Origin: Agroathelia rolfsii
Lineage: Eukaryota > Basidiomycota > Agaricomycetes > Amylocorticiales > Amylocorticiaceae
Direction: 5' to 3'
Assembly (NCBI GenBank): GCA_018343915.1
Contig: JABRWF010000003.1
Coordinates: forward strand, 992,001-1,056,000
Length of the DNA stretch: 64,000 nucleotides
Of this stretch, positions 51,101-58,184 are shown piece by piece. Position 1 is the stretch's first letter. Every line of letters begins with the position of its first letter. The notes beneath the pieces are model-generated. The model had not been told where the DNA came from. It searched no databases and was given only the letters and a program-made list of their open reading frames with translations. Position numbers and translations under genes: made by a program.

Positions 51101-53691
51101 ATGTCCCAACACCTCTTATCTGTTCACCAAGACTACAGTCGACTGACTGCCCTCCGGCAGGCAGCAGGACCAAGGATTACCATCTCTGGCCATGGGTTGA
51201 CTATCCCAGACCTCGTGGCGGTTAGCCGGTGAGGGATCTTGCATCATTCATGCGCTTGTTTGTATTGCAGCAACTGAACGTGGTTGCAGTTATCATGCAC
51301 CCTGTGAAGTCAGCACCGATGGTGCTGTTCGTCAGCGCGTCGAGGCTGCTGTTTCATTCATCAACAAGGCCATTCAACCAGGAGCCAAGACGAGTATTTA
51401 CGGTGTAACAACCGGCTTCGGTGCATCTGGTAAGTTCATGAATTACCTAGTGGATTAGACATATGGCTAACAAATTAATTGAACAGCGTGAGTAAATCGC
51501 GGCATTCAATTGTTGCTTCCCATAGCTTAATTCTTCAATACAGCGGCTTGCGTACGAACCAGGCCCAAAGTTTGCAGCTTACATTCCTCTGGGGCTTGAT
51601 CTGTGGTATCCGGCCCGACCCTGACGGTGCAGATGATCCCAGGACAAAAGATTTCGATGTCACCTGGGATGATTCGTCACTCGTCTTCCCCGAGCCATGG
51701 GCCAAGGGATCTATCGTTCTGCGTCTCAACTCTATCTTGCGAGGACAGTCCGGATGCAGCTGGCAATTGATTGAGAGGCTGCATTCACTCCTGGTGCACA
51801 ATATCACACCATGCCCACCACTGAGACAAAGTATCTCTGCATCGGGAGATCTTGCTCCTCTCGGATACGTCGCCGCAACCTTGTCTGATGACTTTAACGT
51901 GCCAGTCTGGAGTGGCAAGGGGTAAATGAATTCCTCTTCTTTCTACTTAGCGCAAAGGCTGATGGTGCTGGCATGATTCCAGGAAAGACCGTAAGCGCAT
52001 CTCTTCGCGACAGGCCAGGCGTGATCACGGATTAGAATCACACACCTTCGGCCCCAAAGAGGCGCTCGCTACTGTCAACGGCACAGGTGCCAGCTGTGCC
52101 GTCGCCGCGCTTGCACTGCACGACACCAACATCCTGGCCTTGGCGGCACAGGTCACATCGGTCATGGCTGTTGAGGCTTTGCGAGGCACACCCGAAAACT
52201 TTGATTTCATCACGCACGATGTCTCACGCCCCCACCCCGGACAGGTCGAGGTTGCGCGCAACTGTCGTGCACTCTTGGAGGGCAGCCAGCTGGCGCGCCT
52301 TCATGATGAGTCTGACCCGACTCAGGCACTGCGTCAGGATCGGTATGATCTGCGTGCTGTACCGCAATGGATTGGGCCACAGCTCGAGGAGTTGTTGACC
52401 TCCAGGAAGACAATTGAGCTTGAGATGAACAGCACTACGGATAACCCCATTCGTGAGCTTTCCTATCATGACATTTCTTGACATCGGGGATTCTCAACCT
52501 CCCTTGCAGTTGATGTGGAGGGAGAACGTGGTGTTACCGGTGCCAACTTCATGGCAACATCTGTATCGACCGTCATGGACAAGACCCGAATTGGTCTTAA
52601 CCACTTCGGTACGACATTCCTCGGGGCTTATTTTTCTCGGCTTGTTTTCATTCTGATCTCCTGCTTTCGCGCTCTTCACTCTTTCTACCAACAGGTAAGA
52701 TTGCTTTCGCTCAGTTCGGCCAGCTCACAAACCCAACCATGAGTCGCGGTTTGCCCGTTGACGTTGCCGCCTTTGAGCCTTCGTTGGACATGGGCCTGAA
52801 GATCGCTGATATTGCCATGGCTGCATACTACAGTGGTAAGCTGCTAATATACCCTCAATCAGCTTCTTTCCTTTTATATCACTGTTTTTTTTTCTATAGA
52901 ACTCTCATTCGTTTGCAACACTCTTACAAATCACGTCCAGAGCGCCGAGCAGCACAATCAATCAGTCAACTCTATGGCTTTGGCATCCGCGAGAATGACA
53001 TATGACGCAATCCAGATCTTGTACATGGTATGTTTTGCAAGGATTTTTCCTCCTCACCTTCTTGAAACATCATCTTGATAATCAAATGAATCCCTAGATC
53101 TACTCTACCTTCCTCGTTGCGTTGTGCCAAGCCATCGATATTCGTGGTTTGATCGCCAAGTTCTTGGAGCGTCTGGAAGCAGAACTTCACCGCAGCCTCG
53201 CGCCCCTCTTCGACGGAAAAGATGACGCACAACACGCGGCGCTTACCAAGAAGCTCTTCATTCAGTCCCGTCTCTACTTCGACCAGAGCTCGGCCAAGGA
53301 CAGCACATTCCGCTTCCAGGACGTCCTCCGCCCGCTCGTGGCCGACATCGTTGCGTTCCAGGCGACCTACAAGACCCCCTCGTCGGCGACATTCGATGTC
53401 ACCGCCTGGCACGCCAACCTAGCCGAGACGCTCGGAGAGCTGTACAGGGCCACGAGGTTGGAGTACTTCGAAAATGGATCCGCCGACCACTTGATGGGCA
53501 GGACCAAGGTCGTATACTTGTTCATCAGGAAGACGCTCAAGGTTCCCATTCACAAGGGCGACCACAAGGATGCCGAGGGATGGGACGCCAAGTTCTCTCG
53601 TGTCTACCGCTCCTTTGAGTCTGGCGCCATTATTCCCGTGCTCTTGGAGGCCATGCAGTTGGATGGTGTCAATGGGTCGAACGGGGCGTGA
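51101..53691 (+). CDS. PAL: MIO-type aromatic amino acid ammonia-lyase (PAL/TAL-like), copy 1
   Basis: Converts phenylalanine (perhaps tyrosine) to cinnamate (coumarate) and ammonia. Exons 51101-51228, 51290-51429, the single base 51487, 51544-51921, 51983-52452, 52510-52608, 52695-52835, 52900-53027 and 53098-53691 give 692 aa. The active-site loop with YGVTTGFGAS is near residue 85. The MIO prosthetic group would form from Ala189-Ser190-Gly191 in SISASGDLAPLGY. STTDNPI, GVTGANFMATSVS, AAYYSELSFV and [10 protein letters not shown] are family motifs; most PALs have HNQDVNS. Without the base at 51487 the frame after GAS is lost. Copy 2 follows in tandem with identical lengths for exons 1, 2 and 5-9. 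Substrate preference cannot be read with confidence. Confidence 0.93.
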
Positions 53692-55636: not shown

Positions 55637-58184
55637 ATGACTCAACACCTTTTATCTGTACACCAGGATTATCGCCACCTGACTGCCTTTAGGCAAGCAA
55701 ACAATGCGAGCGTTACTATCTCTGGCTATGGCATGACTCTGCCCGATGTCGTAGCTATTAGTCGGTGAGATTTCTCTTGACTCATGCATGTGCCTTGCAG
55801 TCGTCAAATATGTTTTATAGTTACCACGCAACATGTGCCTTGAGCACAGATACCACCGTTCGTGAGCGCGTCGAGGCCGCTGTTCAGTTTATCGTTCAAG
55901 CCATACAACCGGGGGCCAAGACAAGCGTTTATGGTGTGACAACTGGATTTGGCGCATCTGGTATGTTCTTGAGTGTATGTACACTTCCATACACCTCTAA
56001 CTCAGAATCTGCATAGCGTAAGCGTATTATCACTAGATATGCTTTCCAAGTTTGATTATTTAACTTAAAAACCAGCGGACTGCGCACAAATAAGGCATCT
56101 AGCCTGCAGCTTACGCTCCTCTGGGGGCTGACCTGTGGGATTTTACCTGTCCCCGATGCAGAAGAAGCACAGAATCCTGATGCAACTTTTGATGCGTCGA
56201 CACTGACCTTGCCTGAGCCCTGGGTGAAGGGAGCGATTGCTCTACGACTTAACTCTCTTTTACGGGGACATTCTGGATGTAGCTGGGCTCTAATCGAAAA
56301 GCTGCATGCTTTGCTCGTGCACAATATCACACCTTGTCCACCGCTAAGACAAAGCATCTCAGCATCTGGTGACCTTGCTCCATTAGGATATATCGCTGCA
56401 AGTCTTAGTGATGACTTCGTCGTGCCAGTTTGGAGTGGTGAAGGGTTAGTAAGCCTTAGCCCTATGCTTATGTGAAGCAAGAGGTTTTTGATGCATCAAT
56501 TGCTCAGGAAGGACCGAAAGCGGATTCCATCATCTCAGGCCCGGCGCGAGCATGGATTGGAAGCACACACATTTGGACCTAAAGAGGCACTTTCCATCGT
56601 AAATGGGACGGGCATGAGTTGTGCGGTCGCTGTACTTGCACTTTACGAAGCGAATATTCTTGCATTGGCGGCCCAGGTCACGACAGCTATGGCGATCGAG
56701 GCCCTACGTGGCACACCTGAGGCATTTGATGTATTCACACATGATATCGCGCGACCACATCCTGGTCAGATTGAGGTTGCACGCAACTGTAGAGCCCTAT
56801 TAGAAGGCAGCAAGCTCGCACGTTTGCATGATGAGTCAGACCCAACGCAGGCACTAAGACAAGATCGATACGATGTGCGTTCTGCACCGCAATGGCTTGG
56901 GCCGCATGTCGAGGAATTATTGGCATCCAGGAGAACACTTGAGATTGAGATAAATAGCACAACGGACAACCCTATTCGTGAGCTTTTTAAAACTTGCCAT
57001 CTCTCGCTATCTTGATTTCTTATGCCCTGGTAGTTGATGTGGAAGGGCAACGTGGTATTACCGGCGCAAATTTTCAGGCGACATCCGTAGCCACAGTAAT
57101 GGAGAAAACACGCATTGGACTACAACATTTCGGTATTTTGTCTCTTGGATTTGACTTCGGAAAATCTCAATTTTTAAATTTCACTTGTAAACAAAAAATA
57201 GGTAAAATGGCTTTTGCGCAGCTAGGGCAGCTTGTCAATCCGAGCATGAGTTGAGGACTCCCACTCGACCTAGCCGCTAATGAACCATCATTAGACATGG
57301 GTATGAAAACCTCGGATATGTCCATGGCTGCATATTACAGCGGTATGTGCTCTTTCACATTACATAATTTCTTTTCCCTCAGGCTCCTTATAATTTTTCT
57401 CTCTAGAACTAGCTTTCGTTTGCAATACCGTTACAAATCATGTCCAAAGTGCCGAACAACACAATCAATCCGTCAATTCTCTCGCTTTAGTTTCGGCAAG
57501 ATATACATACACTGCGATACAGCTATTGTACATGGTGTGCTGCAATTTTTTTTTTACTGCAAGTACTGCCCTAATAGTCGCACACCTTAGATGTACGCTA
57601 CTCATCTTTGTGCTTTGTGTCAAGCGCTTGACCTGCGCGCCTTGAACGCCAAATTTTTGACCTACATGGAAAAAGAGCTTCATCACAGCCTTGCACCTAT
57701 CTTCGAGAAAAAGGATGAAGCTCAGCATGCTGTGCTGACCAAGAACCTCTTTATCCAGTCGCGTCTCTATTTCGACCAGACCTCGTCCAAGGACAGTACG
57801 ATCCGCTTTCAGGAGGTCCTGCGCCCACTCGCAGTCGACATCATTTCATTCTTGTCGACACATAAGGCATCTTTACCATTTGACGTCGCCGCGTGGCATG
57901 AGAGTCTGAGTTCAACGCTCGCAGAGGTGTACCAGAAAACAAGACAGGAGTATTTCGAGTCTGGTTCGGCCCAGGAGTTGTTAGGAAGGACTAAAGTGGT
58001 CTACTTGTTCATCAGGCAGACACTTAAGGTTCCTCTACATAAAGGCGACTTCTGTGATCCAGAGACATGGGGCGCGAAGATTTCTCGCATTTATCGTGCC
58101 TTCGAAACCGGAGAAATCGTTCCTGTATTGCTGGAGGCCATGGAAGTAAATGAGCAAAATACGAAAATAAGGAGCAAGATGTAA
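55637..58184 (+). pseudogene. PAL: Ammonia-lyase copy 2 with a premature stop
   Basis: Tandem paralogue of 51101-53691. Exons 55637-55764, 55821-55960, the single base 56017, 56076-56444, 56508-56977, 57034-57132, 57202-57342, 57407-57534 and 57591-58184 sum to 690 codons, all in frame. The MIO triad Ala186-Ser187-Gly188 (SISASGDLAP) and STTDNPI, GITGANFQATSVA and [10 protein letters not shown] are present. At codon 420 (57252-57254) TGA replaces the Arg of MSRGLP in copy 1, which removes the C-terminal 40 percent. Everything else is intact, including the one-base exon and a TATA box, so inactivation looks recent. A 45-nt excision from 57250 to 57294 would skip the stop but also delete conserved GLPLD...PSLD residues. 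Readthrough or a sequencing error are further alternatives. Confidence 0.9.

Follow-up and report, generated by a model that had tools for sequence, protein, structure and literature searches.

In the window, that is, the whole 64,000-nucleotide stretch of DNA that was analysed, two tandem paralogous genes, A and B, of the phenylalanine ammonia-lyase (PAL) type were found. The product of gene A matched TIGR01226 (phenylalanine ammonia-lyase) with a score of 571.3 bits, the curated cut-off of this model being 519.15. On alignment to the structure 1y2m, which is presumably the PAL of R. toruloides, the translated model was seen to carry SISASGDLAPLG and SIYGVTTGFG; we take these to be the Ala-Ser-Gly cofactor motif and the segment with the Tyr of the YG loop, which would assign the product to the MIO-dependent aromatic ammonia-lyases. 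The features of both genes that are relevant here are listed in Table 1.

Table 1. Features of the ammonia-lyase genes A and B (positions in the window).
Feature	Position	Strand	Description
Gene A, PAL-type aromatic ammonia-lyase	51101..53691	+	9 modelled coding exons, 692 codons, stop 53689-53691
Gene A, exon 5' of the putative one-base exon	51290..51429	+	phase 1 end (TCT G); terminates ...GGTGCATCTG
Gene A, upstream intron	51430..51486	+	57 nt, GTAAGT...GAACAG, branch-like GGCTAAC at 51465-51471
Gene A, putative one-nucleotide exon (C)	51487..51487	+	middle base of GCC Ala codon, GASAGLRTN
Gene A, downstream intron	51488..51543	+	56 nt, GTGAGT...ATACAG
Gene A, exon 3' of the putative one-base exon	51544..51921	+	opens CGGCTTGCGTACGAACC; first base is third base of the Ala codon
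Gene B, tandem paralogue of A, same exon layout	55637..58184	+	in-frame TGA 57252-57254 (codon 420)
Gene B, upstream intron	55961..56016	+	56 nt, GTATGT...GCATAG, branch-like CTCTAAC
Gene B, putative one-nucleotide exon (C)	56017..56017	+	codon position as in gene A
Gene B, downstream intron	56018..56075	+	58 nt, GTAAGC...ACCAG

The preliminary description of this DNA placed two introns back to back at 51430-51543 in gene A, and its boundaries and splice motifs proved to be exact when they were re-read from the sequence. If the C at 51487 is kept, TCT G, C and C GGC are joined and encode Ser-Ala-Gly within YGVTTGFGASAGLRTN; the translated model confirms the earlier claim that this base completes a GCC codon and the motif GASAGLRTN. 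If the C is left out, translation stops after 107 codons, and retention of the upstream or the downstream intron alone leads to a stop after 98 or 90 codons, respectively. The accompanying statement that the frame is wrong without the C holds for the strong donor of the upstream intron; however, single-intron readings that keep the frame do exist, for example with a donor 4 nt downstream, and they were judged unlikely, as discussed below.

The genome (37.7 Mb, 8 contigs) was found to contain 19 matches to PF00221, out of 21 candidates that were all scored, and contig C3 carries all five of the genes to which they belong. Four of these genes, which are all the members of their subfamily (A, B, L009, and L010), share a single base enclosed by two complete GT-AG introns, in the layout AG-C-GTRAG, at corresponding positions, although the four are related by descent and gene B is possibly a pseudogene. 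In each, this C occupies the middle of the same Ala codon. Genes L009 and L010 lie about 0.8 Mb from A and B and read GTGCGT...GAACAG-C-GTGAGT...AACAG and GTATGC...AAACAG-C-GTGAGT...AACAG, respectively. In gene B, the codon replaced by the in-frame TGA encodes Arg in the four other family members of the genome, and the remainder of the modelled gene is open; gene B is probably a decaying copy or an early pseudogene. The fifth gene, L011, clusters with canonical PALs in the phylogenetic tree; its Ala codon is interrupted once, by a phase-1 intron (G/CC), and a separate 9-nt exon lies just 5' of this intron. Since L011 has the G/CC intron alone, the upstream intron is common to the five genes, and the intron at GC/C is limited to the four. 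No retrocopy of a spliced junction was seen, as all 19 PF00221 matches fall within the five genes.

If the base were skipped, translation would end early, namely after 107 codons in A, B, and L009 and after 114 in L010. This raises the question of whether both products are made, with inclusion acting as an expression switch, an arrangement that would be compatible with a normally included exon. Partial skipping of an artificial one-nucleotide exon was described for a potato invertase gene (PMC4674806), and alternative isoforms were described for the one-nucleotide exon of VPS55 in some plants (PMC8831610), according to the accessible parts of these reports. Nevertheless, an early stop is not specific to a switch, because any frameshift meets one sooner or later, and we regard occasional skipping with such a function as a rather improbable addition.

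The alternative splice models of the four genes were enumerated between fixed protein anchors, allowing GT or GC donors and AG acceptors and requiring a minimum intron length of 35 nt. This yielded 4, 2, 10, and 5 one-intron solutions and 20, 25, 17, and 12 two-intron solutions in frame for A, B, L009, and L010, respectively; when the whole span was left unspliced, stops appeared in all four genes. Scored with site models derived from the 35 remaining introns of the same five genes, which were placed by homology and not by cDNA, the model with a one-nucleotide exon had the top site score in each gene, both summed and per intron, and gave GASAxLRTN throughout. The base is needed for both the frame and the conserved motif, the in-frame alternatives having weaker sites and losing the motif spacing. 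The comparison with one-intron models was made per intron because the two-intron scores sum four sites; in A, B, L009, and L010, respectively, the one-nucleotide-exon model reached 13.0, 11.2, 11.2, and 12.8, and the best model with one intron reached 8.4, 4.8, 9.3, and 8.7. The runner-up two-intron solutions were close in A (25.62 vs. 25.95), B (21.26 vs. 22.43), and L009 (21.11 vs. 22.48); these contain the same one-nucleotide exon, but the motif is disrupted by a change of the outer donor or acceptor.

The individual sites differ in quality. The downstream donors of A, B, L009, and L010 (GTGAGTAA, GTAAGCGT, GTGAGTAA, and GTGAGTGA) outscored 32, 31, 32, and 34 of the 35 others, respectively (rank test p 0.003, from four related donors). 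The base preceding these donors is C, while G occupies this position in 30 of the 35 other donors. Weak sites are found among the proposed introns as well, since the upstream donor of L009 outscored 6 of 35 and the downstream acceptor of gene B outscored 4 of 35. The introns flanking the single base are 56-80 nt long, and the other 35 introns range from 55 to 101 nt with a median of 62.

The codon was also followed in homologous proteins, 175 of which were collected from two overlapping searches (the best 120 of 2,416 and the best 120 of 6,195). The upstream anchor was present in 174 of the 175 listed homologues, and the spacing was normal in 164. Ala follows G-x-S in 161 of these 164 normal-length proteins, and Gly takes its place in P0005, P0121, and P0169; structure 1y2m aligns as YGVTTGFGGSADTRT, likewise with Ala after G-x-S. 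The closest protein among the PAL matches listed has 63% identity, and the five closest genome-annotated relatives among those listed come from Tetrapyrgos (P0001), Dendrothele (P0004), Sistotremastrum (P0003 and P0006), and Gautieria (P0005). Spacing at the Ala codon is aberrant in four of these five models versus 6 of 168 other listed homologues (Fisher p 2.8e-5), a count from which P0002 was omitted as a probable transcript and P0011 because it does not span the site, in which P0003 and P0006 represent one strain, and in which two of the six aberrant others, P0015 and P0122, belong to the sister group. The sixth close relative, P0002 (683 aa), has GGSAVTRTT with normal spacing and Ala; its position on a 2,177-base contig suggests that it was derived from a transcript. 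In a midpoint-rooted tree of 34 rows, the four genes, P0001-P0006, and a sister group of eight rows were united, apart from L011. The aberrant lengths at this very spot fit the earlier expectation that automatic gene finders would break the gene here. The arrangement is kept in all four subfamily paralogues and is indicated indirectly in other species, through aberrant protein models; any conservation across species rests on protein models because the viral_contigs search confirmed no DNA of the relatives.

These proteins bear on a further reading, in which a single longer intron starts at a donor shifted inwards by 4 nt (position 51434 in gene A) and ends at the last acceptor (51543), so that GASGNGLRTN with one added residue is formed and the inner AG-C-GT is a decoy. 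The corresponding product is in frame in all four genes (GASGNGLRTN, GASGIGLRTN, GASGAHLRTN, and GASGINLRTN in A, B, L009, and L010), and it resembles the annotated proteins of Dendrothele bispora (P0004, GASGAVTR) and Mycena floridula (P0122, GGSGNNTR), which have the extra residue expected from a shifted donor (SGAV and SGNN, respectively). The extra residue in these two models speaks against the one-nucleotide exon but may be a predictor artefact, which is how we read it. However, the shifted donors GTTCAT, GTTCTT, GTACGA, and GCATGT outscored just 4, 0, 6, and 2 of the 35 others, a better donor located 4 nt upstream is ignored in each gene, and the resulting introns, at 110-140 nt, would be longer than any of the other 35. 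In addition, the added N, I, A, or I would replace the Ala found in 161 of the 164 normal-length listed relatives, at a site that we assume to adjoin the catalytic Tyr loop, and the occurrence of AG-C-GTRAG in four genes would be left without an account. A single shifted-donor intron is therefore very unlikely.

The pattern was compared with chance expectation. YAGCGTRAG flanked by roughly 50 nt or more on both sides arose in 0.01-0.035% of 20,000 dinucleotide shuffles per gene, this narrow pattern having been picked after the genes were seen; the looser AG-N-GT at such a place arose in 2.3-11.9% of the shuffles. Between L009 and L010, 82% of the coding bases are identical and dS is 0.93, and the identity of the introns beside the single base is at the level of shuffled sequences (0.36 vs. 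0.35 and 0.36 vs. 0.32). Values above the null were obtained for the flanking introns of A and B (0.51 and 0.49 vs. 0.37, sd 0.09) and for the downstream introns of A and L009 (0.48 vs. 0.32, sd 0.09), each null consisting of 20 shuffles. Synonymous divergence was saturated (dS >2) for A/L009 and A/L010, and also for A/B, where 419 codons were compared. The dN/dS ratios of 0.08-0.15 among A, L009, and L010 indicate purifying selection. This selection, together with the same arrangement at four loci and the open frame of gene A across 692 codons, leaves next to no room for a damaged gene or a mistake in the assembly, in which a one-base indel would put a normal single intron out of frame, despite the in-frame TGA of gene B.

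Taken from the sequence, the most probable explanation, to which we assign a probability of about 0.9, is that position 51487 is a one-nucleotide exon of a PAL-type gene that would normally be included by stepwise, intron-defined splicing, and that the second intron was acquired later. As proposed in the preliminary description, the exon would be real, and this is supported by the frame, by the protein motif, by the place of the single base at the centre of a conserved Ala codon, by two abutting short introns that are complete, and above all by the repetition of the layout in three further genes. Since neither flanking intron is incomplete or unusual in length for this gene set, each could be recognised across itself (intron definition). 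The most likely mechanism would be sequential removal of the two introns, since sites one base apart could hardly be occupied by two spliceosomes at once; in either order of removal, the second intron would stay intact. The strong downstream donor (GTRAG) may compensate for having C as the last exonic base (position -1). As for the origin, the second intron may have arrived a single base downstream of an older intron in phase 1; this older intron would be the one that L011 still has by itself, and the layout would be older than the duplications that yielded A, B, L009, and L010.

Two related kinds of arrangement were considered as well. Spliceosomal twin introns (stwintrons) are compound fungal introns that need consecutive excision, as the short adjoining introns described here would, but in the accessible accounts they are defined by an inner intron that splits the donor, branch site, or acceptor of the outer one, whereas here the GT and AG ends of both introns are intact and one exonic base remains between them, so a stwintron is hardly conceivable. 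In a zero-length exon (recursive splice site), the donor immediately follows the acceptor and no base is left in the mRNA. In the present genes, a C that is required for the frame separates the two, and this reading was rejected as well.

One-nucleotide exons represent a limit case for exon finding by the spliceosome and are known but very rare. Nuclear examples described in the consulted parts of the literature are those of APC11, VPS55, and CYP621A. In Arabidopsis APC11, stepwise removal of the flanking introns was proposed (PMC4674806), and another exon of this kind was reported in plant VPS55 (PMC8831610). The exon of Fusarium CYP621A is presented in the available portion of the report as the second example and the first in a fungal gene (PMC12940212). 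The earlier remark that one base is below the length usually thought definable by the spliceosome is thus right as to the rarity of such exons, but these cases show that they are within its reach.

The plant cases resemble the one described here in that a single base lies between two complete introns and was missed in annotations (PMC4674806; PMC8831610), and in VPS55 the base is likewise followed by a conserved GTRAGT donor (PMC8831610). They differ in organism and gene, and they were confirmed by RT-PCR and RNA-seq, as far as the accessible text of the reports goes (PMC4674806; PMC8831610). A close parallel is CYP621A, which according to the available portion of its description is also fungal, has the single base in the middle of a codon of a conserved motif, showed a mismatch between a phase-1 end and a phase-2 start, and was found through comparison with homologues (PMC12940212). 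There, however, the single base is G, the codon one for Gly, and the protein a P450, with 18 RNA reads presented for two species (PMC12940212), whereas the ammonia-lyase case concerns a putative exon read from genomic sequence, with C in an Ala codon, in a mushroom-type fungus and in four paralogues. In the open-licence literature, no published one-nucleotide exon was found in a basidiomycete or a PAL. As far as these searches show, neither a basidiomycete nor an ammonia-lyase would have an earlier example. The kind of exon is known from APC11, VPS55, and CYP621A, and what is notable here is its occurrence across a four-gene family.

The four paralogues and the simpler fifth gene form a natural series in which the origin of the one-nucleotide exon, the order of the introns, and the need for a strong downstream donor can be addressed. 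The evidence leans moderately towards an old, family-wide one-nucleotide exon in a PAL subfamily of Agaricomycetes that includes the Dendrothele, Tetrapyrgos, and Sistotremastrum members. In that case, a second intron would have settled one base from an older one in the codon beside the catalytic Tyr loop, would have been kept through duplication and speciation, and would have been mis-annotated systematically. In several sequenced mushrooms, the region next to the catalytic Tyr loop is probably modelled incorrectly in proteins of this ammonia-lyase subfamily.

Other small features of the family were observed. In gene A, intron 1 (51229-51289) has two candidate CAG acceptors, of which the second alone is in frame (VSRYHAPCEVS), and a gene finder could err there too. 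The 9-nt exon of L011 (GCGGCAGCG, 1081-1089, C3:2085380-2085388) is flanked by introns of 58 and 55 nt; it is comparable to the single base of the four paralogues in belonging to the same gene family and motif and in sharing the phase-1 intron of the Ala codon, but it comprises nine bases and is without a second intron at GC/C. The annotated fungal PALs P0059, P0074, P0075, and P0150 have deletions or insertions at the site of this 9-nt exon and may represent mis-annotated small exons.

Outside the ammonia-lyase family, subunits of RNA polymerase II were considered. Among subunit proteins between 0.55 and 1.75 times as long as the query, the best named matches belong to Marasmius sp. (95%), Agrocybe (94%), and Mycena (93%), which makes a mushroom of the Agaricales a likely source. 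A further observation was made on the gene of the second subunit, which is usually single-copy. Two loci, L012 and L013 (1375-2556; contigs C2 and C1), encode an identical stretch of 393 aa and differ at 49 of 1,182 bases; thus, this gene seems to be duplicated.
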